Below are positions 242-32,285 of a stretch of 41,746 nucleotides of DNA, piece after piece. The number at the start of each line of letters is the position of its first letter. Within the stretch, counting starts at the first letter, position 1. The notes beneath the pieces are model-generated. The model was given only the letters and a program-made list of their open reading frames with translations, had not been told where the DNA came from and ran no database searches. The stretch comes from Acidovorax sp. (GTDB lineage Bacteria; Pseudomonadota; Gammaproteobacteria; Burkholderiales; Burkholderiaceae_C): NCBI RefSeq assembly GCF_022763525.1, contig NZ_JALEGG010000075.1, positions 1-41,746 of the forward strand. The letters are read 5' to 3'. A program made the position numbers and the translations under genes.

Positions 242-281
242 CTATTTTATTGATAGCTGCTGGCGCTCGTGCAATAAGCGC
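242..281 (-). repeat. Twin-hairpin dispersed repeat, copy A (intergenic)
   Basis: This is the only fully intergenic copy of the 40-bp family. In the reference orientation (minus strand here) it reads GCGCTT, a 13-nt block ending in GAGCGC, CAGCAGCTAT, a 7-nt spacer, and ATAG. The first hairpin pairs GCGCTT with GAGCGC (one mismatch); the second pairs CTAT with ATAG. The left flank CGCTTCCA matches the GGCYTCNA flank of other copies. It lies between two convergent genes, where a hairpin could end transcription, but there is no T-run. Confidence 0.8.
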
Positions 282-309
282 TGGAAGCGATTTCTCAGCG
301 AATCATTCC

Positions 310-1839
310 TCAGCGGCTCATTCGCCGCGCCAACGCACTGGCCGTCAGTGCGCGGCCTGCGTGCCACTCGTCTGCCACTTGGCCGTGGACGTACACCGCT
401 TCGCTCGCAGCGCGATAAGCGCTGGCGCCGGCGGCCATGCGTGCGCCCACCATGCCCGCCAGCACGTCGCCCGTGCCGGCTGTGGCCAGTCGTGCGTTGC
501 CGGTGGGGTTGATGGCGGGAACGCGGTCGGGTGCGGCCACCACTGTGCCCGAGCCCTTGAGAACGGCCACGCAGTTGAACTGTTCCGCCAGCTGCCGTGC
601 TGCGCCAAGTCTGTCCGCCTGGATCTCGGCCGTGGTCAGGCCCAGTAGACGGGCCGCTTCCAGCGGGTGGGGGGTCAGCACAGTGGGCTGACCGTGCTGG
701 CCGCGTGCCACTACCAGGGCGTGCAGCGCGGCCTGGTTCGCGATGGTGTTGAGCGCATCGGCATCCAGGACCAGGCGTGCCGCGCTGGTGATGACCTGAG
801 GCAGCACGCGCGCGATGGCCTGTCCGCCGCCGCAGCCGCAGACCACGGTCAGTTGCTCCAGCGCCAGGGCATCGAAGCGGCGGAACATCAACTCGGGTTG
901 GTGCAGATCCAGCTCCAGGCGATTGCTGTCGAGCAAGGCCACCAGGACCCGTCCCGCGCCACCATGCAGTGCGGCCGATGCGGCGAGCAGGGCTGCGCCA
1001 GACATGCCCATGCCACGTTCGTTCAGCCCTTCGCCGCCCACGACGGCCACGTCGCCATAGCTGCCCTTATGGCTGGCGTGTTGGCGGGGCTCGCTCCGCG
1101 CGGGGCCCGAGAGCCAGGCGGTCGGTGGTTCGTGCCCAGGGGGGATCCCCAGATCGTCCAGCCACACCTGGCCGGCGGCATCTCGCCCTGCGGCGGTGAA
1201 CAGGCCTGGTTTGAGAGTGAGAAGGCTCAGCGTATGGCGCGGGGCCTGCGGGTAGGGCGTGTGAAGGTGCTGCGCGGGGGCGGGCGAAAAGCCTGGAGCG
1301 AATTGGCCCGTGTCCGCGTCCAGCCCGCTGGGCAGGTCGACCGCCAGTACGGGTGCCGGGCTGTGCTGGAGTGTTTGAACGCACGCTTGCAGCCGTGCAT
1401 CGGCCGGGCGCACCGGGGTGGCGGGCCGCGAAGACACGCCGATGCCCAGCAGGGCATCGATGCAGAGGTCGTTGGCGCCGAGATCATCGGGTGCAGCGTC
1501 GGCCCAGACCACTCCTGCGCCCTGCGCGCGCTGCCATGAAGCCCTGGCATCCGCGGGGGCGGTGTCCGGGTGGCCCAGCCAGGTCACCACGACCGTGCGG
1601 CCGCTGTTTTGCAGATGCATTGCGGCTTCCAGGCCATCGCCGCCGTTGTTGCCCGGGCCGCAGGCAATCCACACCCGCCGGGTGTGGGGCGCCAGGGCCT
1701 GCGCCAGTTGTGCCACGGCCAGGCCGGCGCGCTGCATCAAGGTGTGCGGGGGCAGAGTTGCTGCTGCCGCGTGCTCAATGCGACGCGTGGCGGCGGTGTT
1801 GAACAGAGGGCGGGGCTGGTCGGCGGCGATGCGGATCAT
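310..1839 (-). CDS. nnr: Bifunctional NAD(P)H-hydrate epimerase / ADP-dependent NAD(P)H-hydrate dehydratase
   Basis: The 509-residue protein repairs hydrated NADH and NADPH: the N-terminal domain epimerises NAD(P)HX and the C-terminal domain dehydrates the S form using ADP. The YjeF_N-like half covers about residues 1-225 and carries GPGNNGGDG at 61-69 and DLPSGLDADTG near 168-178. The kinase-like half starts about residue 255 with HKGSYGDVAVVGG, then has DADALN at 359-364, TPHPLEAARLLG near 389-400 and the nucleotide-binding ATAGTGDVLAG near 452-462. Length fits the fused bacterial family (about 500). It is last in a minus-strand row after the amidase and dadA, 103 nt after dadA, so cotranscription is possible but unproven. 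An antisense open frame here is a shadow. Confidence 0.93.
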   Translation of the reverse strand: MIRIAADQPRPLFNTAATRRIEHAAAATLPPHTLMQRAGLAVAQLAQALAPHTRRVWIACGPGNNGGDGLEAAMHLQNSGRTVVVTWLGHPDTAPADARASWQRAQGAGVVWADAAPDDLGANDLCIDALLGIGVSSRPATPVRPADARLQACVQTLQHSPAPVLAVDLPSGLDADTGQFAPGFSPAPAQHLHTPYPQAPRHTLSLLTLKPGLFTAAGRDAAGQVWLDDLGIPPGHEPPTAWLSGPARSEPRQHASHKGSYGDVAVVGGEGLNERGMGMSGAALLAASAALHGGAGRVLVALLDSNRLELDLHQPELMFRRFDALALEQLTVVCGCGGGQAIARVLPQVITSAARLVLDADALNTIANQAALHALVVARGQHGQPTVLTPHPLEAARLLGLTTAEIQADRLGAARQLAEQFNCVAVLKGSGTVVAAPDRVPAINPTGNARLATAGTGDVLAGMVGARMAAGASAYRAASEAVYVHGQVADEWHAGRALTASALARRMSR

Positions 1840-1892
1840 GGGGCGGCGCGGACGTGGTGGAGCGGCTCGCTCGCCATTGTGCGCGCTGGTGG

Positions 1893-1912
1893 GCTCTTGT
1901 GCGCTCTTGTGC
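1893..1912. repeat. Short perfect tandem duplication
   Basis: GCTCTTGTGC occurs twice back to back in the 103-nt gap between dadA and nnr, and TTGTGCGCG recurs nearby in a degenerate form. It may be replication slippage. No promoter or terminator could be identified with confidence in this gap. Confidence 0.5.
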
Positions 1913-1942
1913 GCGGCCCGCCGCCTGGGTGCGGCCTAGGGG

Positions 1943-3193
1943 TCAGAACCGGCTCCAGCCCAGGCCATCCAGCGACACTTCGGGCTCGCGCCCTGCGATC
2001 TGGTCGGCCACCGCACGGGCGCAGCCGCAGGCCAGCGCCCATCCGCCCGCGCCGTGCCCGATGTTGAGCCACAGGCCGGGGATGCCGCTGTCGCCCACCA
2101 CCGGCGCGCCGTCGGGCAACAGGGGGCGGGCGCCACGCCAGATCTGCAGGCCCGACGAGAGCTGCGCGCCACCGGGAAACCAGTCGTTGAGCGTGCGGTA
2201 TAGGCGTTGCAGCGTGGGCGCGTGGTGCTCGGCCACGGCCCCGCCCAGTTCGGCCCCACCGGCAATCCGTACGCGCTGGCCCAGGCGGGTGATGGCGACT
2301 TGTTGCGCGGCATCGACGACGCTGGCGCGCGGCGCGTGGGTGGCTTCGCGCAGCGGCGCGCTGACCGAGTAGCCGTGCACCGCCACCATCGGCAGCCGCA
2401 GGCCCAGCCCGGCCAGGAGCGCGGCCGACGCCGTTCCCGCGCACAGGACCACGGCATCAAAGCGGCGCACGTCCGGCTCTCCCTGCAGCGCCACGCCCGT
2501 GGGGGTGGCAAGGATGCGTTCCACGCGCGTGTTGAAAGCGAACTGCACCCCGGAGTCCTGTTGCCCCGGGGCGGCCTGGATGCCGTGGCGCAGAAGCTGC
2601 GCAAAGAGCCGGGAATTGCCCGCGCCCGCATCGGGCAGATGGATGACGCCGGCCAACGGCGCTTCGGGGGAAAGCCCCGGCTCGATCTGCCGAGCGACCT
2701 CGGCGCTGATCTCGCGCAGCCCCACACCGCAGTCACGCAGCACCTGCAAAGTGGGCTCCAGGCGTGCGCGGTCTTCCTCCGTTCGCAGCAGCACCAGGCG
2801 GCCGTCGGTCGCCTCGAAATCAAGTTCGTGCTGGCTGGCGATGGCTTTCAGGCGCGCCTGGCTGTACTGGGCCAGCCGTTCCACGGTTGCGGCCGGTGCG
2901 GAGCCAGCGCGGGCCGCGCGGCGCCAGCGCAACAGCCAGCCCACATTGGCACGGCTGATGCCGCCCGCGAGCCGCATCGTGGCGTGGGCACCCATCAGTC
3001 GCAGGCGGGGGCCGAAGCCGGGTAGCGCCCAGGGGCTGGGCAGGTGCGGTGCGAGCAGGCCGGCGGTGGCAAAGCTGGCTTCTTCCGCTACCGCGCTGCG
3101 TTGTTCAAAGACCGTGACTTCATGGCCGTCGCTGGCCAACTCGTACGCAGTGGTCACGCCGACGATTCCGGCGCCCACGATGGCAATCTTCAT
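1943..3193 (-). CDS. dadA: FAD-dependent D-amino acid dehydrogenase (DadA-like)
   Basis: The 416-residue flavoprotein of the DAO family oxidatively deaminates D-amino acids, typically D-alanine, at the inner membrane and passes electrons to the respiratory chain. The N-terminus holds the Rossmann dinucleotide motif GAGIVG at residues 7-12, followed by the conserved YELASDGHEVTVFEQ segment. The C-terminus has the family's conserved GARPLLPDGAPVVGDS and LNIGHGAGGWALACG blocks, which contact FAD. Length matches DadA (about 415-435). It begins 50 nt after the amidase stop on the same strand; amide or peptide breakdown followed by amino acid oxidation would be a plausible shared use, but this is inference. 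Substrate choice cannot be read from sequence, and a related D-amino acid dehydrogenase is possible. Confidence 0.88.
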   Translation of the reverse strand: MKIAIVGAGIVGVTTAYELASDGHEVTVFEQRSAVAEEASFATAGLLAPHLPSPWALPGFGPRLRLMGAHATMRLAGGISRANVGWLLRWRRAARAGSAPAATVERLAQYSQARLKAIASQHELDFEATDGRLVLLRTEEDRARLEPTLQVLRDCGVGLREISAEVARQIEPGLSPEAPLAGVIHLPDAGAGNSRLFAQLLRHGIQAAPGQQDSGVQFAFNTRVERILATPTGVALQGEPDVRRFDAVVLCAGTASAALLAGLGLRLPMVAVHGYSVSAPLREATHAPRASVVDAAQQVAITRLGQRVRIAGGAELGGAVAEHHAPTLQRLYRTLNDWFPGGAQLSSGLQIWRGARPLLPDGAPVVGDSGIPGLWLNIGHGAGGWALACGCARAVADQIAGREPEVSLDGLGWSRF

Positions 3194-3218
3194 GGATCTG
3201 GAGTGTTTTGGGCCTCAG

Positions 3219-3258
3219 GCGCTTGTCCATCAAGCGCAAGCAGCTATTGTTTTTGTAG
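3219..3258 (+). repeat. Twin-hairpin dispersed repeat, copy B (forms the amidase stop codon)
   Basis: This copy is close to the family consensus: GCGCTT and AAGCGC pair perfectly around the 7-nt loop GTCCATC, then GCAGCTAT is followed by a T-rich spacer and GTAG. The flank GGCCTCAG is also consensus. Read on the minus strand it supplies the final amidase codons CTA CAA AAA CAA and its TAG stop, and the first hairpin falls in the 50-nt gap before dadA. Confidence 0.88.
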
Positions 3259-4602
3259 TGTTTGCTCGATCTGCAGGGCCACGTTGAGCACGGTGTCATC
3301 CCGCAGGGCCCCGTGCCAGACCATCAGGCCGACCGGGAGTTCCCCCGGCGCATGGCAGGGCAGCGACAGCGCGCAGCCGTCGAGCAGGTTGACCACGCTG
3401 GTGTTGCGCAGCAACAGGCTGTTGACGCGGAAAAACTCTGTGTCCCGCGCGGCATCTTGCGCAGGGTCGGCGCCATCGGCTGGCGCTACGTCAGCCAGGG
3501 GAGGGGCGACGATGGGCACCGTGGGGGAGAGCAGGGCGTCGTAGCCTTCCGTGTCGGCCGCCATGCGTGCAATCCACTGCTGGCGGGCCTGGAGCAGGTC
3601 GATGTACTCCCAGGCCATCATCGTGGCGCCCTTCTCGATGCGTGCCCGGACACGGGGGTCGTACTGCTCGCCAGCGCGCTGCAGCAGCTCACGGTGCCAC
3701 GCGTAGCTCTCGGGCGCCGAGAAGCCGTAAGCCGGCTGGTCCAGCACGGCGGGAAGGGCGATGGTGTCGATGTGCGCTCCAGCGCGGCGCAGTGCTTCCA
3801 CGCTGCGCTCGAAGGCGTGCGCCACGGTGGCGTCGGCGCCATCCAGAAACAGGGTAGAAGGCACGGCCAGCCGGTACTGCGATAGCGGCGCCAGACTCCG
3901 CGTGACCCGCCGGGCTGCCAGGATTTCATGGGCCACGATGGCGTCGCGAACCGTGCGTGTCAGCGCGCAGGCGGTGTCCAGCGTCGTCGACAGGGGGATG
4001 GCGCCCGCAGTGGGAACCAGCCGGGCGGTGCTCTTGAACCCAACGATGCCATTGAGCGCCGCCGGAATCCGGATGGAGCCGCCCGTGTCCGAGCCCAGCC
4101 CGATGAACGCAGCCCCCGTGGCCACGGACACCGCGGCCCCCGAAGAAGATCCACCGGGAACGCGCACCGGCCCGGGCAGCGCGCCAGAGCGCGCGTCCCA
4201 GGCGGCCGGGGTGCCGTAGTGCGGATTGACTCCCACGCCTGAAAACGCGAACTCCACCATGTTGGTCCGGCCTATCAGCGTCGCGCCCGCGGCACGAAGA
4301 CGGGCTACCGCGGGGCTGTCCTGCTGGGCGCAAGGGGCCTTCGCCAGCACGGTAGAACCGGCGGGGGTGGGCTGGCCTTGCACGTCGAAAAGGTCCTTGA
4401 CCGACACCGCCAGGCCCGCCAGCGGAAGTTGTTGCACATCAGGTTGCACCACCGTGGTGCGCGCGGAATCAAAGAGCGTGCGCACAAAACTATGGTTGTT
4501 GGACGGTGCCAGGGCTGCTTCGATGCAGCGCTCGAGTTCGGCGGGCGCGGTGGTGGCGCCGTCCCGCAGCTGGGTGCGGGTGGCGATCAGGTCGTCAAGC
4601 AT
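3244..4602 (-). CDS. Amidase-signature family amidase
   Basis: The 452-residue enzyme belongs to the amidase signature family, serine hydrolases with a Ser-cisSer-Lys triad that cleave carbon-nitrogen amide bonds. Visible in order: the lysine in VSVKDLFDVQG (about residue 69), the glycine/serine-rich PGGSSSGAAVSVA (about 149-161, cis-Ser), and GLGSDTGGSIRIPAA (about 168-182, nucleophile Ser near 176). The family includes GatA, urea amidolyase and nitrile-pathway amidases; GatA is unlikely because no gatB or gatC is nearby. The start at 4602 (MLDDLIATR) fits the family; in-frame ATG 4653 and GTG 4662 would extend it into the rpsB leader and are less likely. The C-terminal LQKQ and TAG stop come from repeat copy B. 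Substrate is unknown. Confidence 0.88.
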   Translation of the reverse strand: MLDDLIATRTQLRDGATTAPAELERCIEAALAPSNNHSFVRTLFDSARTTVVQPDVQQLPLAGLAVSVKDLFDVQGQPTPAGSTVLAKAPCAQQDSPAVARLRAAGATLIGRTNMVEFAFSGVGVNPHYGTPAAWDARSGALPGPVRVPGGSSSGAAVSVATGAAFIGLGSDTGGSIRIPAALNGIVGFKSTARLVPTAGAIPLSTTLDTACALTRTVRDAIVAHEILAARRVTRSLAPLSQYRLAVPSTLFLDGADATVAHAFERSVEALRRAGAHIDTIALPAVLDQPAYGFSAPESYAWHRELLQRAGEQYDPRVRARIEKGATMMAWEYIDLLQARQQWIARMAADTEGYDALLSPTVPIVAPPLADVAPADGADPAQDAARDTEFFRVNSLLLRNTSVVNLLDGCALSLPCHAPGELPVGLMVWHGALRDDTVLNVALQIEQTLQKQ

Positions 4603-4607
4603 GGGTG

Positions 4608-4616
4608 TGCTAGAAT
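4608..4616 (+). promoter_or_regulatory. Extended -10 promoter element for rpsB
   Basis: TGCTAGAAT matches an extended -10 (TGn plus TAGAAT, 5 of 6 to TATAAT). No good -35 hexamer lies at normal spacing, as expected for an extended -10. Transcription would start near 4623, just before the structured rpsB leader. The element lies a few bases upstream of the divergent amidase start. Confidence 0.5.
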
Positions 4617-4621
4617 CTTTG

Positions 4622-4746
4622 GGTTTTGCTGGGTGCAGTTGCGCCAGGTGCATTGATTGCACGTTGCGCGTGGCGGCTCTCGCAAAACCAATCGCAAAGC
4701 AGCCCTGTCAAGGTGTTGCAGTGTTCGTGAAATCACGGTGCTGCAA
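4622..4746 (+). promoter_or_regulatory. Structured 5' leader of rpsB (nested stems plus second hairpin)
   Basis: Two structures are seen. The first is nested: GGTTTTGC (4622-4629) pairs exactly with GCAAAACC (4682-4689); inside it CGCCA (4642-4646) pairs with TGGCG (4671-4675); and GTGCA (4648-4652) pairs with TGCAC (4658-4662) around a 5-nt loop. The second has an outer stem TTGCAG (4716-4721) with CTGCAA (4741-4746) and an inner stem CGTG/CACG. In E. coli the rpsB-tsf leader binds free S2 to repress translation. That this leader does the same is inferred. Confidence 0.55.
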
Positions 4747-4787
4747 ATATTGGGGCTGATTTTAGACCTAACCTTTGGAGTATTTTT

Positions 4788-5540
4788 ATGTCCGTTACCA
4801 TGCGCGAAATGCTGGAAGCCGGTGTCCACTTCGGTCACCAAACCCGCTTCTGGAACCCCAAGATGGCCCCCTACATCTTCGGCCATCGCAACAAGATCCA
4901 CATCATCAACCTGGAAAAGTCGCTCCCGCTGTTCCAGGAAGCCCAAAAGTTTGCCAAGCAACTGACCGCCAACCGCGGCACCATCCTGATGGTGGGCACC
5001 AAGCGCCAAGCCCGTGAAATCCTGGCCGCCGAAGCGCAGCGCGCTGGCGTGCCCTTTGTCGATCAGCGCTGGCTGGGCGGCATGCTGACGAACTTCAAGA
5101 CCGTGAAGACCTCGATCAAGCGCCTGAAGGACATGAAGGCTCAGCAGGAAGCCGGCCTCGAGAACCTGAGCAAGAAGGAGCAACTGACGTTCTCCCGCGA
5201 AATCGAAAAGCTCGAAAAGGACATCGGCGGCATCCAGGACATGGCTGCGCTGCCCGACGCCATCTTCATCATCGACGTGGGCTTCCACAAGATCGCTGTG
5301 GCCGAAGCCAAGAAGCTGGGCATTCCGCTGATCGGTGTGGTGGATACCAACCACTCGCCTGAAGGCATCGACTACGTGATCCCCGGCAACGACGACTCGG
5401 CCAAGGCTGTGACTCTGTATGCCCGTGGCATCGCCGACGCCATCATCGAAGGCCGCGCCAATGCCGTGAACGAAGTGGCCAAGGCCGCTTCTGCTGAAAG
5501 CACCGACGAATTCGTGGAAGTGCAAGAAGCCGCCGCCTGA
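4788..5540 (+). CDS. rpsB: 30S ribosomal protein S2
   Basis: The 250-residue protein is ribosomal protein S2 of the small subunit. The N-terminus [21 protein letters not shown] is the S2 signature, with the central coiled-coil region around residues 100-145 and the conserved [18 protein letters not shown] and [25 protein letters not shown] segments. Length is near the usual 241-255. The start ATG follows TTTGGAGTATTTTT, where GGAG is the ribosome binding site. It heads the classical rpsB-tsf-pyrH-frr unit, with a strong attenuator hairpin before tsf. The long structured leader suggests autogenous control by S2. Confidence 0.98.
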
Positions 5541-5574
5541 GTGCCCGGCTGCGCGATCCGTCGCGAACAAAAGC

Positions 5575-5602
5575 GGGGCCCCTGGTGAGCCCCCTTTTTT
5601 TT
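5575..5602 (+). terminator. Intrinsic terminator/attenuator between rpsB and tsf
   Basis: GGGGC (5575-5579) pairs with GCCCC (5589-5593) around a 9-nt loop and is followed by eight T (5595-5602). Because tsf and pyrH follow in the same direction without an obvious new promoter, it probably acts as a partial terminator that lowers tsf expression relative to rpsB. Confidence 0.8.
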
Positions 5603-5646
5603 AGCCCGAATCTGAACCCATTGAACTGAACACTGAAGGAATAAAG

Positions 5647-6573: not shown

Positions 6574-6622
6574 TCACGTCCTGCAACCCACCAGCCCCCG
6601 TCACACTTTGGAGACCTTGCCC

Positions 6623-8715: not shown

Positions 8716-8716
8716 G

Positions 8717-8744: not shown

Positions 8745-9599
8745 ATGCTCAAACAGCGCATCATCACAGCTCTTGTCCTGCTGGCCATTCTGCTGCCGGC
8801 ACTCTTCTACTCCTCCACCGAGCCTTTCACGGTCGTGGTGCTGGTGCTCATGGCCGCCGGGGCGTGGGAATGGGGGCGGCTGAGCGGGTTTGGCCAAGCC
8901 GGGTCTGTGGCGGTGGGAGCCGTGTGCGTGGCCCTGTGCGCTGGCTCGTGGGCATTGGGGTGGCTCGACCGTCCGTTGACGGGGCTCTGGGTGGCTGGGG
9001 GCGGGCTGTGGGTGCTGGCTGCGGCATGGCTGCTCAGGGCCGGCGTGCCGGGCTGGCCGCGCATTCCTTCCGCGGTCAGGCTGGTGGCCGGTGTGCTGGC
9101 TTTGTGGCTGGCGTGGCTGGCGGTGGTACAGGCGCGCAAGGTCGGTATCAATTTCCTGTTGTCCGTGTTGCTGCTGGTGTGGGTGGCCGACATCTTTGCC
9201 TACTTTGCGGGTCGCGCTTTCGGACTGCGTTTCACCAAGGGCAAGCTGGCGCCCTCCATCAGCCCCGGCAAGAGCTGGGAAGGTGTCTGGGGGGGCTTGG
9301 CGGGGGTGGTGGTGATGGCGTTTGCCTGGGTGGCCGCGGATGCCCACTGGCAGGCCGCCGTGCCCAGCTTTTACAGCCGCATGGCACAGCCGGGCTGGTG
9401 GCTGCTGATCATTGCGGCGCTGTTCATGGTTGCCATGAGCGTTTCGGGCGATCTGGTGGAGTCGCTGATCAAGCGCAGCGCGGGCGTCAAGGACAGCAGC
9501 GGGCTGCTGCCGGGCCATGGCGGTGTTCTTGACCGCGTGGATGCCCTGCTGCCCACGCTGCCCCTGGCGATGATGCTGACCAGCCTCACGATGCAATGA
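8745..9599 (+). CDS. cdsA: Phosphatidate cytidylyltransferase (CDP-diglyceride synthase)
   Basis: The 284-residue integral membrane enzyme makes CDP-diacylglycerol from phosphatidic acid and CTP, the branch point of phospholipid synthesis. Multiple hydrophobic segments fill the N-terminal 150 residues. The C-terminus has the complete CdsA signature: SLIKRSAGVKDSSGLLPGH followed by GGVLDRVDAL, with the metal/phosphate-binding KD and DR pairs. SPGKSWEGVWGGLAG is also conserved. Its TGA overlaps the dxr ATG (ATGA), suggesting translational coupling. Length matches the family (about 270-290). Confidence 0.96.
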   Translation: MLKQRIITALVLLAILLPALFYSSTEPFTVVVLVLMAAGAWEWGRLSGFGQAGSVAVGAVCVALCAGSWALGWLDRPLTGLWVAGGGLWVLAAAWLLRAGVPGWPRIPSAVRLVAGVLALWLAWLAVVQARKVGINFLLSVLLLVWVADIFAYFAGRAFGLRFTKGKLAPSISPGKSWEGVWGGLAGVVVMAFAWVAADAHWQAAVPSFYSRMAQPGWWLLIIAALFMVAMSVSGDLVESLIKRSAGVKDSSGLLPGHGGVLDRVDALLPTLPLAMMLTSLTMQ

Positions 9600-10780
9600 T
9601 GAAGAAACAACGAATCACAGTTCTGGGCTCCACCGGGTCCATCGGCACCAGCACGCTGGATGTCGTCTCTCGGCACCCGGATCGGTTTGAGGTGTTTGCC
9701 CTGAGCGCGGCCACGCAGGTGGACCTGATGCTGGCACAGTGCGCTCAGTTCAAGCCCCGCTATGCCGTGATGGCCAGCGCCGACCACGGCCACGCATTGG
9801 CGGAAAAAATCAAGGCAAATGGGCTTCCAACGCAAGTACTTCAAGCGCAAGAAGCTATCGAAACAATAGCATCTCACCCGGATGTGGATGCCGTGATGGC
9901 GGCCATCGTCGGAGCTGCCGGCTTGGCGCCCTGCCTGGCTGCGGCGCGGGCGGGCAAGCGGCTTCTGCTGGCCAACAAGGAAGCCCTGGTGGTCGGTGGC
10001 GGGCTGTTCATGCACACGGTGCGCGAGGGCGGCGCGACCTTGCTGCCCATCGACAGCGAACACTCCGCGATTTTCCAGTGCCTGCCCGAAGACCCGGCAA
10101 CCTGGGCAGACCGGGTGGATAGCATTCTGCTCACGGCGTCCGGTGGCCCATTTCGGCAACGGGACCCCTCCACGCTGTCGCAGATCACGCCCGCGCAGGC
10201 CTGCGCGCATCCCAATTTTTCGATGGGTCGCAAGATCTCGGTGGACTCGGCCACGATGATGAACAAGGCCCTCGAGGTGATCGAGGCGCGCTGGCTGTTT
10301 GATCTGCATCCGGACCAGATCAAGGTGGTGATCCATCCGCAGCAAATCATCCATTCGATGGTGCAATTCAAGGACGCATCCATCCTCGCCCAACTGGGGA
10401 CGCCTGACATGCGCGTGCCCATTGCCTGTGGACTGGCGTGGCCCGAGCGCATCGAGAGTGGCGCAAGCAGGCTTGATTTTTCGGCGCTGTCCGCGCTGGC
10501 ATTCGAGGACGCCGACGCGCGGCGTTTTCCGGGGTTGCACCTGTCGTGGCAAGCGCTCAAATCCGCCGAAGGGACGACAGCCGTGCTCAACGCCGCCAAC
10601 GAGGTGGCCGTGGGTGCGTTTTTGTCGGGCCGGCTGCGGTTTGACCACATCCACGCCGTGAACCTTGCAACTTTGGAGAAGGTTCTGCCCTCCAAGCCTG
10701 ATTCGCTCGCAGCGCTACTGGATCTGGACGCCCAGGCCCGCCACGCCGCCGAGCATGCCGCCGGGCGTCTGGCGGCATGA
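9596..10780 (+). CDS. dxr: 1-deoxy-D-xylulose 5-phosphate reductoisomerase
   Basis: The 394-residue enzyme catalyses the committed step of the MEP isoprenoid pathway, converting DXP to MEP with NADPH. The N-terminal Rossmann motif is GSTGSIGTSTLDVV; next come LLANKEALVVGG, the metal/substrate motif LLPIDSEHSAIFQCL, TASGGPFR and the loop MGRKISVDSATMMNKALE. The start overlaps the cdsA stop; ATG 9599 is an equally possible start. Repeat copy C encodes residues 79-91 (TQVLQAQEAIETI), in the variable stretch before VDAVMAAIVGAAG, without making the protein longer than E. coli Dxr (398). Confidence 0.97.
   Translation: MMKKQRITVLGSTGSIGTSTLDVVSRHPDRFEVFALSAATQVDLMLAQCAQFKPRYAVMASADHGHALAEKIKANGLPTQVLQAQEAIETIASHPDVDAVMAAIVGAAGLAPCLAAARAGKRLLLANKEALVVGGGLFMHTVREGGATLLPIDSEHSAIFQCLPEDPATWADRVDSILLTASGGPFRQRDPSTLSQITPAQACAHPNFSMGRKISVDSATMMNKALEVIEARWLFDLHPDQIKVVIHPQQIIHSMVQFKDASILAQLGTPDMRVPIACGLAWPERIESGASRLDFSALSALAFEDADARRFPGLHLSWQALKSAEGTTAVLNAANEVAVGAFLSGRLRFDHIHAVNLATLEKVLPSKPDSLAALLDLDAQARHAAEHAAGRLAA
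9830..9869 (+). repeat. Twin-hairpin dispersed repeat, copy C (inside dxr)
   Basis: In this degenerate copy ACGCAA replaces GCGCTT, but CAAGCGCAAG and AAGCTAT match consensus, and the second hairpin CTAT/ATAG is intact. The flank GGCTTCCA matches the family. The copy starts at a codon boundary of dxr (phase 0) and reads TQVLQAQEAIETI. Confidence 0.72.
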
Positions 10781-16672: not shown

Positions 16673-17461
16673 GTGAGCAACATCCACCCCACAGCCATCG
16701 TTGATCCGCGCGCACAAATCGACGCGACGGCCAGCATCGGGCCCTACAGCGTCATCGGCGCCCACGTCGTCATCGGCGCGGGCACCACGGTGGGTGCGCA
16801 CTGCGTGATCGATGGGCGTACCACGCTGGGCCGCGACAACCGCATCTTTCAGTTCAATTCGATTGGCGCCGTTCCGCAGGACAAGAAGTACGCGGGCGAG
16901 CCCACCGAGTTGGTCATCGGCGACCGCAACACCATCCGCGAGTTCTGCACGCTCAATCTGGGCGTGCCGCAGGCGGGCGGCATCACGACGGTGGGGAACG
17001 ACAACTGGATCATGGCGTACACCCACATCGCCCATGATTGCCATGTCGGGAACCACACCACGCTGGCCAACAACACGACGCTGGCCGGCCATGTCATTCT
17101 GGGCGATTGGGTGACCGTGGGCGGGCTGACGGGCATCCACCAATTCGTCAAGGTCGGCGCGCATGCCATGGTGGGCTTTGCGAGCGCAGTGTCCCAGGAC
17201 GTGCCCCCGTTCATGCTGGTGGATGGCAATCCGCTGGCTGTGCGGGGCTACAACGTGGTGGGGCTGCGCCGGCGCGGGTTCTCGCCCGAGCGCATCGATG
17301 CCGTCAAGCAGATGCACAAGCTGATCTATCGCCAGGGACTCACGCTGGCGGCCGCGCGTGCTGCCATCGGGGAACTCGCGCAGTCCGCGCCAGAGGCGGG
17401 CGCTGACGTGGCCCTGATGGAGCAGTTCCTGGCCGATGCCACCCGTGGCATCGTGCGTTGA
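16673..17461 (+). CDS. lpxA: Acyl-[ACP]-UDP-N-acetylglucosamine O-acyltransferase
   Basis: The 262-residue enzyme starts lipid A synthesis by moving a 3-hydroxyacyl chain to the 3-OH of UDP-GlcNAc. It is almost wholly a hexapeptide left-handed beta helix, beginning [20 protein letters not shown], with the catalytic-His region [21 protein letters not shown] and a C-terminal helical part from about residue 190. GTG at 16673 gives exactly the E. coli LpxA length; an upstream in-frame extension overlaps fabZ and is rejected. It lies 17 nt after fabZ and 10 nt before lpxB. Confidence 0.96.
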
Positions 17462-17471
17462 GGCGCAAACC

Positions 17472-18635
17472 GTGAACCCCTCTCCCCGCATCGCCATGGT
17501 GGCGGGTGAAACCTCGGGCGACCTGCTGGCGGGCCTGCTGCTGGACGGCATGCAGGCCCATTGGCCGGGCCTGCAGTCCAGTGGAATCGGCGGCCCCCAG
17601 ATGCAACGCCGCGGGTTTGCCGCCTGGTGGCCCAGCGACAAGCTCGCCGTGCACGGCTACAGCATGGAAGTGCTGCGCCGGCTGCGGGAGCTGCTGCGTA
17701 TCCGCAAGCAACTGCGCGAACGGCTGCTCCGGGACCGGCCAGACGTCTTCATCGGCGTGGACGCGCCCGATTTCAATCTGGGGCTGGAGGCCGACCTGCG
17801 TGCGGCGGGCATCAAGACCGTGCACTTCGTTTGCCCGTCGATCTGGGCGTGGCGCGCAGATCGCGTGGAAAAAATCCGCCGCAGCGCAGACCACGTGCTG
17901 TGCATTTTTCCGTTCGAACCCGAGTTGCTGGCGCGCCATGGCATTGCAGCCACTTATGTAGGGCACCCGCTGGCAGGCGTGATTCCCATGGTGGCGGACC
18001 GCACCGCGGCGCGTGCGGGGCTGGGGCTTGCAGACAGCGACGAAGTGCTCGCCATCCTGCCGGGCAGCCGATCTTCGGAGATCCAGTACATCGCCCCACC
18101 GTTTTTTGAGGCTGCAGCGCTTATCCGACAAGCGCGGCCGGCTATCAAATTGATAGTACCTGCCGTGCCCGCACTGCGTGAGCGCATCGAGCAGGCGGCC
18201 GTGGCTGCGGGCTTGGGCGGAGTGGTGCAGATCGTGGCGGGGCAGTCCCATGCGGTGCTCGCTGCGTGCGATGCGACGCTGATCGCCAGCGGCACTGCAA
18301 CGCTGGAGGCCGCCTTGTTCAAGCGTCCGATGGTCATCGGCTACCACATGCACCCCTTGAGCTGGTGGCTGATGCGCCGCAAGCAACTGCAGCCCTGGGT
18401 GGGCTTGCCCAACATCCTGTGCGGCGATTTCGTGGTGCCCGAGCTCATCCAGGATGCGGCCACCCCGCAGGCATTGTGCGCCGCCACGCTGCAGTGGCTG
18501 GATGCGCGCCAGAACGAGCCTGCCAAAATCACCGCCCTGGAGCAGCGCTTTACGGCGTTGCATGAAAGCCTGCTGCGCAACACTCCTCAACTGGCTGCCG
18601 ATGCGATCCAGAAAATCCTCCAACCGAGTGCCTGA
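17472..18635 (+). CDS. lpxB: Lipid-A-disaccharide synthase
   Basis: The 387-residue glycosyltransferase (GT19) joins UDP-diacylglucosamine and lipid X to form the lipid A disaccharide at the inner membrane. Conserved blocks: [16 protein letters not shown] at the N-terminus, [57 protein letters not shown] and the C-terminal [22 protein letters not shown] 17472 is chosen because it begins the family N-terminus just after the lpxA stop. Repeat copy D encodes residues 216-228 ([13 protein letters not shown]), in the stretch matching E. coli AQLLRQTYPDLEIVVP without a gap. Its end overlaps the probable rnhB start. Confidence 0.96.
18117..18156 (+). repeat. Twin-hairpin dispersed repeat, copy D (inside lpxB)
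   Basis: GCGCTT/AAGCGC pair perfectly around ATCCGAC, and the second hairpin CTAT/ATAG is intact with the spacer CAAATTG. The flank GAGGCTGCA fits the family. The middle reads CGGCCGG instead of CAAGCAG. The copy starts on a codon boundary (phase 0) and encodes [13 protein letters not shown]. Confidence 0.8.
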
Positions 18636-19239: not shown

Positions 19240-20013
19240 ATGACCTCTCCTTCCCTCATCGCCATCCACTCCCGGGACAACCCGTTCGTGAAGGACCTGC
19301 GCCGCCTGGCGCAGGACACCACGGCGTACCGCAAGCAGGGGCGCGTCTGGCTGGAGGGCGACCACCTCTGCCGCGCGGCACTGGAGCGCGGCCAACGTCC
19401 TGCCGTGGCGGTGTTTGCAGAGTCTTTTTGGCCTCAAGCGCAGACAGAATGGGCGCAAGCAGCTACTAAAACCATAGTGCTCGCCGATGCCTTGTTTGCC
19501 GACATCAGCGGGCTGGAATCCCCGGCCCGCATGGGCTTCATCCTCGATCTGCCCGCATCCAGCGCTTTGCAACCCAGTGCAGCCACCGTGGTGCTCGATC
19601 GTGTGCAGGACGCCGGCAATGTCGGCTCCATCCTGCGCAGCGCGTCGGCGTTCGGCTTCCGGCAGGTGGTGGCGGTCAAGGGAAGCGCGGCCCTGTGGTC
19701 ATCCAAGGTGCTGCGGGCGGGCATGGGCGCGCACTTTGCACTGGATCTGATCGAGGGCGTCGAACATGCGGCGGTGGGGTCGCTGGCGGTCCCGTTGCTG
19801 GTGACCAGCTCGCACGCCGGCGACTGGCTGCATCGTGCCACCTTGCCCTGGCCCTGCGCCTGGGTACTGGGGCATGAGGGGCAGGGGGTGTCACCCGCGC
19901 TGGAAGCGCGCGCTGCCCTGCGCATCCGCATCGCGCAGCCGGGCGGGGAGGAGTCCCTGAACGTCGCTGCGGCCGCGGCCATCTGCCTGCATGCCAGCGG
20001 TGCGGCGCGCTAG
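19240..20013 (+). CDS. TrmH/SpoU-family RNA 2'-O-methyltransferase
   Basis: The 257-residue protein is a SPOUT methyltransferase that modifies a ribose 2'-OH in rRNA or tRNA with S-adenosylmethionine. The N-terminal substrate-binding part covers about 1-105. The catalytic knot has motif 1 DRVQDAGNVGSILRSASAFG, motif 2 VLGHEGQGVSPAL and motif 3 IAQPGGEESLNVAAAAAICLH. It starts 6 nt after rnhB and is the last gene of the plus-strand block. The RNA target cannot be named from sequence. Repeat copy E encodes residues 67-79 (AQTEWAQAATKTI) in the linker between domains. Confidence 0.9.
   Translation: MTSPSLIAIHSRDNPFVKDLRRLAQDTTAYRKQGRVWLEGDHLCRAALERGQRPAVAVFAESFWPQAQTEWAQAATKTIVLADALFADISGLESPARMGFILDLPASSALQPSAATVVLDRVQDAGNVGSILRSASAFGFRQVVAVKGSAALWSSKVLRAGMGAHFALDLIEGVEHAAVGSLAVPLLVTSSHAGDWLHRATLPWPCAWVLGHEGQGVSPALEARAALRIRIAQPGGEESLNVAAAAAICLHASGAAR
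19438..19477 (+). repeat. Twin-hairpin dispersed repeat, copy E (inside the RNA methyltransferase gene)
   Basis: The flank TTTTTGGCCTCAA and the block GGGCGCAAGCAGCTA match consensus; GCGC/GCGC of the first hairpin is kept, and the second hairpin ends CATAG. Starts on a codon boundary (phase 0) and encodes AQTEWAQAATKTI, sharing WAQAA with copy F. Confidence 0.8.
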
Positions 20014-22812: not shown

Positions 22813-26058
<3,246 letters not shown>

Positions 26059-26096
26059 ACCGTGTCAAAGGCGGCATAATCTGCCCTTGACCAGAC

Positions 26097-26130: not shown

Positions 26131-26144
26131 GTAGACTCACTGTT

Positions 26145-26169
26145 TTGCGCCGTGCCCGCATGGGCGCAA
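26145..26169 (+). promoter_or_regulatory. Second hairpin in the carB-greA gap
   Basis: TTGCGCC (26145-26151) pairs perfectly with GGCGCAA (26163-26169) around an 11-nt loop. It is the middle of three hairpins before greA. Confidence 0.4.
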
Positions 26170-26182
26170 CAGGGTGACTGAT

Positions 26183-26216
26183 CGGTGGAAGTGCTTTTCG
26201 GCGCTTTCACCGTTTT
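26183..26216 (+). promoter_or_regulatory. Terminator-like hairpin in the greA leader
   Basis: A 12-bp stem (26183-26194 with 26201-26212, including two G-U pairs) with a 6-nt loop is followed directly by four T. It ends 21 nt before the greA ATG. E. coli greA is known to have a terminated leader RNA (GraL); this could be an analogous attenuator, but sequence similarity to GraL is not claimed. Confidence 0.5.
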
Positions 26217-26237
26217 GACTTATGGAGACGCAACAAG

Positions 26238-26714: not shown

Positions 26715-26728
26715 GCGTGGGGCAGGAC

Positions 26729-27178
26729 ATGCGCGATCGATTTCCCGTTCTGGTGGCAGCCCTCTGGTGGGGGAGCCTGACCACCATCGGGTTTCTGGTT
26801 GTGCCGCTGTTGTTTGCCCATCTTCCGTCCCCCATGGTGGCCGGCAACATGGCAGCGAAGCTGTTTGCCGCGCAGACATGGGTGTCCGTGGCATGTTGCC
26901 TGGCCTTGTTGCTTGTTTCAAGGCCAAAACAGGCTGTAGCGCAGTATCCATGGGCGCAAGCAGCTATGGTTTTCATACTGGGAGGCATGCTTCTGGCTTT
27001 GGCAACCCAGTTCGGAGTGGCGCCGCGGATCGTGGCGCGCCAGGATCTGCGCCTGTGGCACAGCGTGGGAACGCTGATGTATGCGCTGCAGTGGTGTTGT
27101 GCGCTGGCGGTGTTTTGGCACACGCTGCGCCACGATTCGGATCCAGAGCCATCCGAGAGCCAACCCACAGCCGGTTGA
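26729..27178 (+). CDS. DUF4149-type small membrane protein
   Basis: The 149-residue protein resembles the DUF4149 (TMEM205-like) family found after greA in Burkholderiales; no biochemical role is known to me. Four hydrophobic segments are visible: about 8-28 (ALWWGSLTTIGFLVVPLLF), 45-62, 80-97 (MVFILGGMLLALATQ) and 115-135. Conserved residues include the FLVVPLLFAHLPSP loop and AAKLFAAQTW. ATG 26729 gives the usual N-terminus (MRDRFPVL) after GGCAGGAC; GTG 26711, overlapping the greA stop as GTGA, is the alternative. Repeat copy F encodes residues 71-83 (AQYPWAQAAMVFI), between the second and third membrane helices. Confidence 0.82.
   Translation: MRDRFPVLVAALWWGSLTTIGFLVVPLLFAHLPSPMVAGNMAAKLFAAQTWVSVACCLALLLVSRPKQAVAQYPWAQAAMVFILGGMLLALATQFGVAPRIVARQDLRLWHSVGTLMYALQWCCALAVFWHTLRHDSDPEPSESQPTAG
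26939..26978 (+). repeat. Twin-hairpin dispersed repeat, copy F (inside the DUF4149 gene)
   Basis: The block ATCCATGGGCGCAAGCAG is close to consensus; GCGC/GCGC of the first hairpin remains. The second hairpin is damaged at its last base (CATAC for ATAG). The flank AGGCTGTA fits the family. It starts on a codon boundary (phase 0) and encodes AQYPWAQAAMVFI. Confidence 0.8.
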
Positions 27179-27202
27179 GGCTGGGCTGCACGGAGGGGGC
27201 GC

Positions 27203-27979
27203 TTACTCGTGCCAGTGTTCTGCCACCCAGGTGGCAGGTCGGATATAGCGGAACCTGCGGTTGCGCCGCCCCGCCAGTGCGTCGGGCGGGTTGCATTCCC
27301 CATGAAAGATCACGATGCGGGCGCCAGGCGGCACGAACGGTGCCCGCCAGTAGTTCGTGGGCCAGGGAGGGATTCCGTGGTATTTGAAGCTCGGGCACCA
27401 CTCGGTCGGCCAATACTGCAGCTTGCCCTGCCGGTGCAGAAAGTCTGAAAGATAGGCCTGTTCGTTGCGAAACCGGGCACGGATTTCAGCGAAGTGGGAG
27501 CGGAAATACGCAAGGACATCCGGGTGCGCGCCGAGTTCGAAGCGGTACACCGACGAATTGCCTGTGATGCGCCAGGGCCGCTTGTAGTCGTGGATGATCA
27601 GGAATTCGCCGGGGCGAGTGAAGAAATCGTCCAGGCTGCCCGTGATGACCACATCCACGTCCAGGAACAGGGCAGTGCCCTTCAGGCCATGCAGATCCTG
27701 GGTGAACGTGGCGAGTTTGGTCCAGCCGCGTTCAGGGATGCCGGGCGGCAGATCCAGCGGCGGAATCGGCAGGCACCGCACTTCGCTGCGGATGCCCGTG
27801 CTGTCGTCCGTCAGGCAGATGAACGAAAAGTCGCCGCTCAGGTGCCTGCGCACCATCGCGTATAGCCGATTGACATACTCGGGACCATACTTGGTACCCC
27901 ACTTCATGCAAAGGATGTGGCGGGCAGGGGCCGCTTGGGCGGACGCTGCAGGCGCTGCGGAATCCGACTCCGGGCGCAT
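27203..27979 (-). CDS. Putative glycosyltransferase (GT-A type, DxD motif)
   Basis: The 258-residue protein looks like a GT-A glycosyltransferase. The LFLDVDVVITGSLDDFF segment holds the metal-binding DxD at 107-109; FSFICLTDDSTGI and RGWTKLATFTQDL upstream resemble GT8-type nucleotide-sugar sites. The C-terminus has the probable HGECNPPDAL loop (GT8 proteins have a C-terminal His motif here). No membrane segment or signal peptide is seen, so it is likely cytoplasmic. Its ATG shares one base with the stop of the YhbY gene (TGATG), so the two are coupled. Donor and acceptor are unknown; it could modify a surface sugar. Confidence 0.78.
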   Translation of the reverse strand: MRPESDSAAPAASAQAAPARHILCMKWGTKYGPEYVNRLYAMVRRHLSGDFSFICLTDDSTGIRSEVRCLPIPPLDLPPGIPERGWTKLATFTQDLHGLKGTALFLDVDVVITGSLDDFFTRPGEFLIIHDYKRPWRITGNSSVYRFELGAHPDVLAYFRSHFAEIRARFRNEQAYLSDFLHRQGKLQYWPTEWCPSFKYHGIPPWPTNYWRAPFVPPGARIVIFHGECNPPDALAGRRNRRFRYIRPATWVAEHWHE

Positions 27980-28452
27980 CAGTCGGCCTGGCGCTTCTTG
28001 ATGGATTTTTGCTTGGGCTTGGCGCGCTTGATCTGGCCGCCCGAGGTAAGGCGCTGGTTACCCAGCACGCGCAGTTGTTTGATCTCTGGCCGTTGGCCGC
28101 CCCGCTTGCTGAACTTGAGCACCTTGACGTCGCGTGGGCCGGGCATGCGGTCCTCGTCCACGGCGCGTTGCTTGGCCGGCTGGGGCCTCCATAGCACGAG
28201 CAGTTTGCCAATGTGCTGGATGGGGGCGGCATTGAGATCGGCGGCGATCTGCTGGTACATCAGTTCCCGGGCTGAGCGGTCGTCGTTGAATACACGCACC
28301 TTGATCAAGCCATGGGCGTTGAGCGCGGCGTCAATTTCCTTCTTGACGGCGGGCGTGAGGCCATCGCCACCAATCAGGACAACCGGGTCCAGGTGGTGGG
28401 CGTTGGCGCGGTGTTCCCGGCGCTCGGCGGGAGTCAGTTGAATTTGGGGCAT
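27979..28452 (-). CDS. yhbY: YhbY-family (CRS1-YhbY domain) RNA-binding protein
   Basis: The 157-residue protein contains a CRS1-YhbY domain (about 1-98), a KH-like fold linked to assembly of the large ribosomal subunit. The N-terminus [20 protein letters not shown] and the loop [21 protein letters not shown] with the GxxG-like turn are diagnostic. E. coli YhbY is 97 residues; here a basic tail of about 60 residues is added, ending [16 protein letters not shown], likely an extra RNA contact. The start at 28452 gives the family N-terminus; the longer frame toward rlmE is rejected. Divergent from rlmE, another ribosome-assembly gene. Confidence 0.9.
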
Positions 28453-28457
28453 GGGCC

Positions 28458-28464
28458 GTATTAT
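28458..28464 (-). promoter_or_regulatory. -10 element for yhbY immediately before its start codon
   Basis: On the minus strand GATAAT (about 28459-28464) lies only about 6 nt from the yhbY ATG, with no good -35 at normal spacing. If used, transcription would start at or next to the ATG, giving a leaderless message. A plus-strand TTGAAT (28438) / TATTAT (28459) pair with a short 15-nt spacer overlaps it and could serve rlmE. Confidence 0.35.
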
Positions 28465-28554
28465 CCGCGGCCCATCGCATCGCGCCCTCATCGCGGGGGC
28501 GAAATCGCGGACATGCCCGGGGCCATGGCTGTCCTCAAGCGACAATGGAGGCGT

Positions 28555-29217
28555 ATGAAAGTCAAAACCCAGAGCAAGAAGGTCAACAAGGCGTGGCTGA
28601 ACGACCACGTCAATGACCCCTACGTGAAACTCGCCCAGAAAGAGGGCTATCGGGCGCGCGCGGCGTACAAGCTCAAGGAGATCGATGAACAGTTGGGCCT
28701 CATCAAGCCGGGGTACACCGTGGTGGACCTGGGGTCGACCCCAGGCGCTTGGAGCCAGTACGTGCGCCGCCGGCTTTCCCCCACCGGCGCGGCGGTAGGT
28801 CAGCTCAATGGCACCATTGTTGCGCTAGACATCCTGCCCATGGAGCCGATTGAAGGGGTTGTCTATATCAACGGGGATTTCCGGGAGGCATCTGTCTTGG
28901 AGACCCTGGAGAAAACCCTGGACGGGCGCCAAGTGGATGTGGTGGTTTCCGACATGGCGCCCAATCTTTCGGGCATCGAGTCGGCGGACGCCGCACGGAT
29001 TGCTCATCTGGTGGAGCTGGCGGTGGATTTTGCGACACACCATCTCAAGCCTGACGGTGCCCTGGTCGTCAAACTCTTCCATGGCAGTGGCTACAGTGAT
29101 TTGGTGACACTTTTCAAACAAACTTTCAAGGTCGTCAAGCCCTTCAAGCCGAAAGCCTCCCGGGATAAATCTTCCGAGACGTTCCTGGTCGGCCTGGGGC
29201 TCAAAAAGTCGGGCTGA
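28555..29217 (+). CDS. rlmE: 23S rRNA (uridine-2'-O-)-methyltransferase RlmE
   Basis: The 220-residue FtsJ/RrmJ enzyme methylates the ribose of U2552 in 23S rRNA (E. coli numbering) in the A-loop. SAM-binding motif: [15 protein letters not shown] at about 58-72. The catalytic K-D-K-E set is placed in [12 protein letters not shown] (first Lys), [11 protein letters not shown] (Asp), [12 protein letters not shown] (second Lys) and [11 protein letters not shown] (Glu). The start is ATG 28555 after ATGGAGGCGT. Known in E. coli as the gene upstream of ftsH and part of the heat-shock response; the same order is kept here. Confidence 0.96.
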
Positions 29218-29307
29218 GCGGCCTCCTGCAGGGTTAGCCAGCTGATAAACGCTCCTAAGTCCGCGCTGTTTCCATGGCCGCTAGGGGGAATAACCATGGC
29301 TTGCCTG

Positions 29308-29335
29308 CTTGAAAGACCTAAAATGGGCCGCACAT
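29308..29335 (+). promoter_or_regulatory. Sigma-32-like heat-shock promoter for ftsH
   Basis: CTTGAAA at 29308-29314 is an exact match to the sigma-32 -35 core. After 13 nt, CCGCACAT at 29328-29335 matches six of eight positions of the CCCCATnT -10. A start near 29342 would leave about 48 nt of leader. A sigma-70-like TAAAAT (29319-29324) overlaps, so dual use is possible. Confidence 0.6.
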
Positions 29336-29389
29336 GCGTCCCATGACGGGCGTATGTCCGTTTTCTGTTCCCTGCAACTGGAGCCCCGC

Positions 29390-31309
<1,920 letters not shown>

Positions 31310-31339
31310 GAGGGCTCGCCGCACCACGATCCGACTCAG

Positions 31340-31363
31340 CGGGGCCTTGCGCCCCGTTTTTTT
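31340..31363 (+). terminator. Intrinsic terminator after ftsH
   Basis: CGGGGC (31340-31345) pairs with GCCCCG (31351-31356) around the loop CTTGC, followed by seven T. It lies 30 nt after the ftsH stop and separates ftsH from folP. Confidence 0.88.
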
Positions 31364-31445
31364 GCGACGGCAGTTTCCGTCTGCGATCGGTGGCTAATTC
31401 CGTTTTCACGCTGGCCCGCGCACTTGTGGTTTTTTCGATGGCTCC

Positions 31446-32285
31446 ATGATCTGGCAGACCTCCCGCTTTTCCATAGACCTCCGCCAGCCGCGCGTGATGG
31501 GCATCGTCAACGTGACGCCGGATTCGTTCTCTGACGGGGGGCATCATGCCTCCACCATGGAAGCGCTTCGCCACTGCGAGCAATTGCTCAAGGATGGTGC
31601 GCATATTCTGGACATCGGCGGCGAATCGACGCGCCCGGGTAGCCCGGCGGTACCTCTGGAAGAGGAACTGGCGCGTGTGCTGCCGTTGGCGAGGGAGGCG
31701 GTGTCGCTGGGTGTACCGATTTCGGTGGACACCTACAAGGCCGAGGTCATGCGGGCCGTGCTGGACGTCGGGGTGGACATCATCAACGACATCTGGGCGC
31801 TGCGGCAGCCGGGCGCCGCTGCAGCGGTTGCCGCGCACCCGGGGTGCGGTGTGTGCCTGATGCACATGCACCGCGACCCGCAGACCATGCAGGCGTCGCC
31901 AATGATGGGCGATGTGCTGCCATCGGTGCTATCTTTTTTGGAGCGGTGTGCGCTTGATCTACAAGCGCTCGGGGTCGAAAAGGCTCGCATTGTGGTGGAT
32001 CCGGGCATCGGTTTCGGTAAAACGGTGGAGCAGAACTTTTCCCTGCTGGCCCACCAGCCGGTACTGCGCGCTGTGGGCTATCCGCTGTTGGCCGGCTGGT
32101 CGCGCAAGTCGTCCCTGGGTGCTGTGACGGGGCTGGATGTCCATGACCGCATGGTGCCCAGCGTTGCTGCAGCGGTGCTGGCGGCCGAACGGGGTGCCTC
32201 GATCCTGCGGGTGCACGATGTCCGGGAGACGGTGGCCGCGCTGGCGGTCTGGAATGCGATGCGGCAAGCTGGTGGCGAGGGCTGA
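31446..32285 (+). CDS. folP: Dihydropteroate synthase
   Basis: The 279-residue TIM-barrel enzyme condenses p-aminobenzoate with hydroxymethyl-dihydropterin diphosphate in folate synthesis and is the target of sulphonamides. Conserved: VMGIVNVTPDSFSDGGHH (about 17-34), LDIGGESTRPGSPAV, ISVDTYKAEVM, NDIWALRQPG, CLMHMHRDPQTMQ, VVDPGIGFGKTVEQN, LLAGWSRKSSLG and SILRVHDVRET. Length is near E. coli FolP (282). It is followed by glmM, the order found in E. coli (ftsH-folP-glmM). Repeat copy G encodes residues 162-174 (LSFLERCALDLQA), on a helix just before the conserved VVDPGIGFGK. Confidence 0.96.
   Translation: MIWQTSRFSIDLRQPRVMGIVNVTPDSFSDGGHHASTMEALRHCEQLLKDGAHILDIGGESTRPGSPAVPLEEELARVLPLAREAVSLGVPISVDTYKAEVMRAVLDVGVDIINDIWALRQPGAAAAVAAHPGCGVCLMHMHRDPQTMQASPMMGDVLPSVLSFLERCALDLQALGVEKARIVVDPGIGFGKTVEQNFSLLAHQPVLRAVGYPLLAGWSRKSSLGAVTGLDVHDRMVPSVAAAVLAAERGASILRVHDVRETVAALAVWNAMRQAGGEG
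31929..31968 (-). repeat. Twin-hairpin dispersed repeat, copy G (inside folP)
   Basis: In the reference orientation (minus strand) GCGCTT and AAGCGC pair perfectly around GTAGATC and the far end reads GATAG. The middle is diverged (ACACCGCTCC for AAGCAGCTAT), so the second hairpin is lost. Read on the folP strand it begins on a codon boundary; the position that is TAG in copy B is GAG here, so the frame stays open. Confidence 0.72.

Follow-up and report, generated by a model that had tools for sequence, protein, structure and literature searches.

A dispersed motif of about 66 bp in Acidovorax and related Comamonadaceae as a candidate DNA-uptake signal

Uptake sequences are known from the Pasteurellaceae and the Neisseriaceae (PMC7811141). 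In Haemophilus influenzae the uptake signal sequence (USS) joins a GC core to A/T tracts, and the predicted rigidity of these tracts is important (PMC7811141); its proposed receptor is a minor pilin (PMC12616744). The DNA uptake sequence (DUS) of the Neisseriaceae occurs in lineage dialects, its intragenic copies limited by reading frame and its intergenic places permissive (PMC3630211). Repetitive extragenic palindromic (REP) elements are small palindromic repeats, present in many copies and mostly between genes (PMC3733652). Here we analyse a motif of about 66 bp that occurs seven times in a 41,746-nucleotide stretch of DNA from Acidovorax sp. (NCBI RefSeq assembly GCF_022763525.1, contig NZ_JALEGG010000075.1, positions 1 to 41,746; hereafter the window). 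The motif is plausibly, though somewhat short of probably, a DNA-uptake signal, of the kind represented by USS and DUS, that serves natural transformation in Acidovorax and its kin.

Like the USS, which is found both in genes and between them, the motif is present in many copies in one lineage and joins a short GC core to A/T tracts; it differs from the USS, with its 9-bp core, in length, in having a pair of palindromic blocks with A/T tracts to either side, in sequence, and in the family that carries it. As a repeated mark of the core genome it resembles the DUS (about 10 to 12 bp, with ComP as receptor), but it is far longer, and no second dialect was found in Verminephrobacter eiseniae EF01-2 (G541). 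It shares with REP elements its small size, palindromic character, high copy number and mostly intergenic position; unlike REP elements and their associated tyrosine transposases (RAYTs), it is seldom near RAYT-type genes, shows no hairpin constraint and is not inserted at its in-gene sites. Palindromic elements of Rickettsia likewise lie within conserved genes, as in-frame insertions that lengthen the proteins, whereas protein length is unchanged in the genes that bear the present motif.

The original prediction described a twin-hairpin repeat of 40 bp in seven ungapped copies, and all seven (Table 1) are genuine: each was found in its place, and they align without a gap, five on the plus strand and two (at 242 and 31929) on the minus strand. 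Over the 33 fixed letters of a 48-bp consensus the copies score 25 to 31, against 22 for the next best position in the window and 19 to 22 in 20 mononucleotide shuffles. A 66-bp profile, built from 30 exact-core copies of the same genome with the window copy at 3219 among them, picks out exactly these seven, no other window site reaching 10 bits and none reaching 6 bits in 20 Markov-1 sequences. The motif reads TTT, A-tract, GGCCTCYA, GCGCTT N7 AAGCGC, NAGCAGCTAT, A/T-tract, ATAGCA. The flank that had been thought to bring the element to about 48 bp is real, but the conserved stretch is longer, extending from about -22 to +43 around GCGCTT in the alignment of the 30 exact-core copies and from about -25 to +43 in 99 intergenic and 50 coding sites; divisibility of the length by three explains nothing that needs explaining. 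The logo is the same for coding sites (55 bits) and for intergenic ones (62 bits), all of them pre-selected at 20 bits or more. By our own arithmetic about 14 bits suffice to find some 500 sites, and information so far above that need appears drive-like.

The genome from which the window comes (4.87 Mb) holds 330 matches to the core when up to 3 mismatches are allowed (154 + 176; reversed-pattern control, 0 + 0), so that a real family, dispersed, without a gene of its own and with fixed spacing, stands behind the hundreds of copies that had been predicted. At up to 2 mismatches, where the reversed pattern gives isolated single matches in a few genomes, the core is present in 36 of 40 genomes of the genus and 54 of 250 of the family (34 with at least 6 matches, 20 with 1 to 3). 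It was matched in five of 300 genomes of the order (our own, two more from its family, and two from elsewhere in which it matched once) and in one of 185 of the class, again our own. A fixed-spacer pattern matched 102 stretches in a collection of named genomes, belonging to Acidovorax (temperans, facilis, radicis, delafieldii, defluvii, benzenivorans, kalamii and undesignated species), to Comamonas, Diaphorobacter, Simplicispira, Giesbergeria, Paenacidovorax and Extensimonas, to one Ottowia bin and one Rhodoferax bin, and to bins lacking a genus name. The earlier suggestion of occurrence across the Comamonadaceae is thereby borne out: the motif is centred on, and nearly confined to, this family, and it is absent wholesale from a few lineages. 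Per 400-kb sample, sites of at least 20 bits number 51 in G570, 55 in G546 and 49 in G303, which belongs to another genus, against 1 in the motif-poor G541. Among the open-licence papers listed in searches on Comamonadaceae repeats, REP elements, DUF1010 and uptake signals, no description of the motif was seen, and four literal 14-letter strings from it gave no match in that literature.

Inside genes, the motif is very probably a DNA-level signal that has evolved in place. The prediction had placed copies in the conserved genes dxr, lpxB and folP, which is correct, and genes for a SpoU-type methyltransferase and a DUF4149 protein carry them as well; its picture of elements inserted into these genes as units is not supported by the comparison of orthologous loci. 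Orthologues are free of gaps at all five in-gene sites and the proteins are native: there are no gaps at the lpxB and SpoU-type methyltransferase sites in 29 relatives each, nor in dxr (10 relatives), the DUF4149 gene (8) or folP (7), rows being absent from the alignments for G541 and G577 at the DUF4149 and folP sites and for G544 at folP. The sequence at the site beats all 1000 synonymous recodings in 7 of 7, 28 of 29, 28 of 29, 6 of 7 and 7 of 7 motif-bearing rows (window row included) and in 0 of 11 rows from motif-poor genomes, a single codon table (window plus G546) having been applied to all genomes. At dxr, where several relatives carry a partial motif, intermediates of 48, 33, 32, 31, 25, 4 and -12 bits were found, and motif-poor genomes score -19 to -56. 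The motif in genes accumulates at fixed places through point substitution. These observations bear on a first alternative, that of a non-autonomous mobile repeat, similar to REP elements or miniature inverted-repeat transposable elements, which inserts between genes and whose in-gene copies are old or of other origin: when loci were pooled, each of the 42 coding intervals that lack the site (from 6 loci) preserves the length of its site-bearing counterparts, the motif there being written by codons.

Table 1. Motif copies and adjoining genes in the window, with scores against the 66-bp profile.
Feature	Position	Strand	Remarks
Copy 1	238..303	-	55 bits; intergenic, downstream of nnr
nnr, NAD(P)H-hydrate epimerase/dehydratase	310-1839	-	
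D-amino-acid dehydrogenase-like gene	1943-3193	-	copy 2 lies immediately upstream of its start
Copy 2	3197..3262	+	78 bits; spans the stop codon of the amidase gene
Amidase gene	3244-4653	-	stop codon covered by copy 2
Copy 3	9808..9873	+	48 bits; in dxr (9596-10780, +)
Copy 4	18095..18160	+	43 bits; in lpxB (17436-18635, +)
Copy 5	19416..19481	+	36.5 bits; in gene for SpoU-family RNA methyltransferase (19240-20013, +)
Copy 6	26917..26982	+	35.5 bits; in gene for DUF4149 protein (26729-27178, +)
Copy 7	31925..31990	-	34.6 bits; in folP (31446-32285, +), on the strand opposite to the gene

In general, most copies lie between genes, as a mobile repeat would have it. The claim that they are mainly within genes is true of the window (5 of 7) but not of three other genomes (the samples of G570, G546 and G303), where a simple purpose-made gene finder puts 98 of 155 sites between genes, 45 within them and 12 at their edges, as compared with 11 to 14% of random positions falling between genes. 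Among 50 coding sites (window included), 24 lie in one frame, which reads roughly A-L-x-x-x-A-Q-A-A-I-x-x-I.

Between genes the evidence from length is mixed. At the end of the amidase gene (copy 2) the interval agrees within a few bases in the loci of all 29 relatives, motif-poor G544, G569 and G577 among them, which argues against insertion. In these three genomes (loci L187, L193 and L194; G577, G544 and G569) another palindrome stands at the amidase end, and the interval that holds it has hardly changed in length. Upstream of a Y1-transposase (RAYT-type) gene, the motif is complete in two genomes (37 and 34 bits), and in others only its right-hand part, ATAGCA with the A-tract, is present, at nearly one length, again unlike an inserted unit; a stretch upstream of this gene is conserved in the 14 aligned loci. 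In the pooled set (the window, L001-L030 without L025, L069-L168 and L204-L345; the 29 copy-2 loci, L025 and L169 were kept out to avoid dominance by one locus, and L031-L068 and L199-L203 are also outside it), 129 of 200 site-bearing intervals have the same length within 6 bp. The 81 site-less orthologous intervals represent only 17 loci, 30 rows coming from dxr and 28 from upstream of the RAYT-type gene; an alternative comparison of intervals, requiring flanks within 15 bp of the site, is less telling.

Some intergenic copies look like the presence or absence of whole units, which would suit a mobile repeat and weighs against a signal built solely in place. Length is kept in just two of 11 intergenic or edge loci (upstream of the RAYT-type gene, and L312) and changes in nine, three by -69, -70 and -80 bp, about one element, and six otherwise. 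Two of the three near-unit cases are clean, and a mobile element would give them too: between pstB and phoU, 80 bp with a whole site are present in our genome and in one metagenome-assembled genome and absent in G572, and at L344 (G382) about 69 bp with a site are absent in G559. In the third (L108 against L110) the left flank aligns poorly. Neither clean case has an outgroup, so that gain and loss look the same and deletion is as possible as insertion. Nor do the copies follow a transposase: a link to RAYTs was considered and rejected, since a site occurs near just 3 of the 20 Y1-transposase (RAYT-type) genes whose neighbourhoods were retrieved, and such genes occur without the motif as well. 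The gene itself (G000:C187:11543-11824 and relatives) is present in 37 of 40 genomes of the genus, mostly in single copy, with the motif or without it. We regard a mobile repeat as rather unlikely to account for the family.

The palindromes, obvious in the best copies, invite an explanation at the level of RNA, as a terminator, a stabiliser of mRNA or a riboregulator. Sites are enriched between convergent gene pairs in G546 (10 against 3.0 expected) and slightly in G570 (12 against 9.3), but they are depleted there in G303 (3 against 6.1); between tandem pairs their orientation is mixed (27 same, 37 opposite), and within genes they stand on either strand. The twin hairpin of the original prediction also fails as a constraint, its arms being unequally conserved and showing no covariation over 187 sites: Watson-Crick pairing is 0.804 in the first stem, as compared with 0.802 ± 0.005 for shuffled partners, and 0.694 in the second, as compared with 0.708 ± 0.006, and stem changes are mostly one-sided. 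The arrangement GCGCTT-N7-AAGCGC is perfect in three of the seven window copies but not in the other four, and two of the copies score below 0 over the first palindrome though their flanks and right halves are strong (in copy 5 the flanks and right half are retained about a first "stem" that scores below 0). An Rfam scan of the window gave two weak matches, neither at a motif copy. An RNA-level structure is thus nearly refuted, and we give it hardly any weight. The A/T stretches are chiefly AAAA, AAAT, TTTT or AATT, with TpA steps rare and the GC core adjacent, and such A-tracts suggest that what is read is the shape of double-stranded DNA. Three matches in the same genome (G000:C82:1324-1362, C117:322-360 and C161:1846-1884) overlap on both strands, with the right-hand arm on both sides of the core palindrome. 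Between the gene at 29354-31309 and folP, window positions 31293-31364 give a sub-threshold Rfam match to SorX (24.5 bits; cut-off, 46.6), perhaps an ordinary terminator.

The motif is scarce in prophage regions. Twelve regions of 20 kb around phage portal genes (239 kb; 12 of 13 portal matches, motif-poor G544 being excluded) contain 5 sites, and eight control regions (159 kb, drawn from 6 of the 11 genomes) contain 25; some of the 5 may fall outside the prophage. Restricting the comparison to the six shared genomes and dropping control L342, which is the window's orthologous region and whose four sites were foreseeable, leaves 4 sites in 7 phage regions and 21 in 7 controls, 139 kb each. The Acidovorax plasmid NZ_AP029020.1 has 2 sites in the 150 kb scanned (of 365 kb), a Diaphorobacter plasmid has 2 in 50 kb picked around a match, and a phage collection yielded one matching record, AB571791.1.

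Rarity in prophages and preference for intergenic DNA would equally be expected of a binding site for a chromosomal protein, one that might serve self-marking, recombination, segregation or the organisation of the nucleoid; such a site would have been selected in place at several hundred positions and would have no role in uptake. The whole of the in-gene evidence fits such a site just as well, and loss of the motif in a few lineages would fit loss of the protein. Against it stands the information content: with several hundred sites in the genome, about 60 bits in each is far beyond what binding needs. KOPS and Chi are polar with respect to the direction of replication, unlike the motif, whose sites favour neither strand significantly along the replichores of G570, G546 or G303 (Fisher p 0.16, 0.78 and 0.26); a polarity apparent among the matches listed for G303 was not upheld in these samples. 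No candidate protein turned up, although no search was aimed at one. On balance we think a binding site of this kind unlikely.

A DNA-uptake signal, the reading we prefer, would work as follows. The long double-stranded motif of about 66 bp would be recognised by a type IV pilus receptor at the cell surface, which would prefer fragments with a good copy; recombination would then replace the poorer version of the recipient by the better one, so that improving changes would all spread, a form of molecular drive, and an occasional short intergenic stretch might carry in a whole motif. A self-reinforcing signal of this type would be expected to grow in place within genes, to stay within one lineage, to be scarce in phage regions, to carry excess information and to be missing wholesale from a few lineages, as is observed. 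A. temperans and A. facilis are reported as naturally transformable, A. temperans solely by DNA of its own species, and for A. defluvii and A. delafieldii that study reports transformation as not detected (PMC4212676). The genomes of all four carry the motif, matched at the level of species and not strain, the A. defluvii record being flagged as contaminated. Neither "repeat" nor "palindrom" occurs in the text of the same study, which also reports that V. eiseniae binds and takes up DNA selectively and that it needs type IV pili (PMC4212676).

Several observations weigh against an uptake signal. A. temperans is not transformed by DNA of other Acidovorax, which a motif shared across the genus leaves unexplained. 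V. eiseniae EF01-2, recognised in G541 by 100% identity to plasmid NC_008771 over the 20 kb of contig C1 compared, has one site of at least 20 bits in 400 kb (one of 26 bits, one of 12, and a slight excess of low scores over shuffled sequence); being nearly free of the motif, it must owe its selectivity to something else and lends no support. ComEC is present in 37 of 40 genomes of the genus, including four of the five with 0 or 1 core matches, and is thus uninformative; GspH/FimT matches, found in 36 of 40, are independent of the motif, three motif-poor genomes having one weak match and two having four, and among carriers G543 having one weak match and four genomes none. Sites are not clearly more evenly spaced than at random (coefficient of variation 0.71 to 0.78, against 0.83 to 0.85 ± 0.1 for a Poisson process), and one G546 stretch of 47% GC (L109, G546:C1:1-20000; other sampled stretches of that genome, 60 to 68%) bears five sites, a poor fit with rarity in foreign DNA. 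Lastly, a length of 66 bp far exceeds known uptake cores; given about 66 bp and 55 to 62 bits against a core of 9 to 12 bp, we do not file the motif as a member of the USS or DUS. A second motif or "dialect" in G541 was sought and rejected, the top words being a CRISPR-like repeat and the ends of a repeated element: the CRISPR-like word (CTGCCTATCCGGCA) has 170 copies in 20 kb (L135, G541:C2:1600000-1619999), and 25 ends of an element starting CTAGTGTC, probably an insertion sequence, occur in 400 kb (L131-L146).

The motif also surfaces in protein databases. Pfam treats DUF1010 (PF06231) as a protein family, whereas the motif is a pattern at the level of DNA, and in one frame the window copy at 3203-3268 matches DUF1010 positions 4-23 with 20.2 bits (cut-off, 25). 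The genome of origin has 95 DUF1010 matches at E of 1 or less, at least 4 of them above the cut-off, and at least 20 of the 95 overlap with core matches, of which roughly 100 of 330 were listed. Partial matches to the consensus occur in 1,751 records of a plasmid collection, and in 32 of the 40 listed the match lies under a DUF1010 open reading frame (ORF). On plasmid NZ_MZ513635.1 (L350, 1489-1554) a copy of 79 bits sits in such an ORF, flanked by dfrA12 and aadA2 within a class 1 integron; against the DUF1010 profile this ORF reaches 98 bits. From these overlaps and the integron copy it follows that DUF1010 is, at least in part, the DNA motif, open in that frame and translated. The cassette with this ORF was probably derived from a bacterium of the motif-carrying group. 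Annotators should accordingly be warned that DUF1010, and the ORF of this dfrA12-DUF1010-aadA2 integron array, carry the motif in translation.

Whatever its function, a motif of about 60 bits written into conserved genes through the choice of codons is unusual. We know of no third family with uptake sequences, and it is possible, though less likely than not, that the Comamonadaceae possess a third, independently evolved code for the uptake of self-DNA, with a site about five times the length of USS or DUS, which molecular drive would have assembled one module after another at hundreds of places and which would shape the codons, and even some residues, of essential proteins. If that is true, a third family with a long site and half-built copies in its relatives would make it testable whether drive or selection builds such signals.

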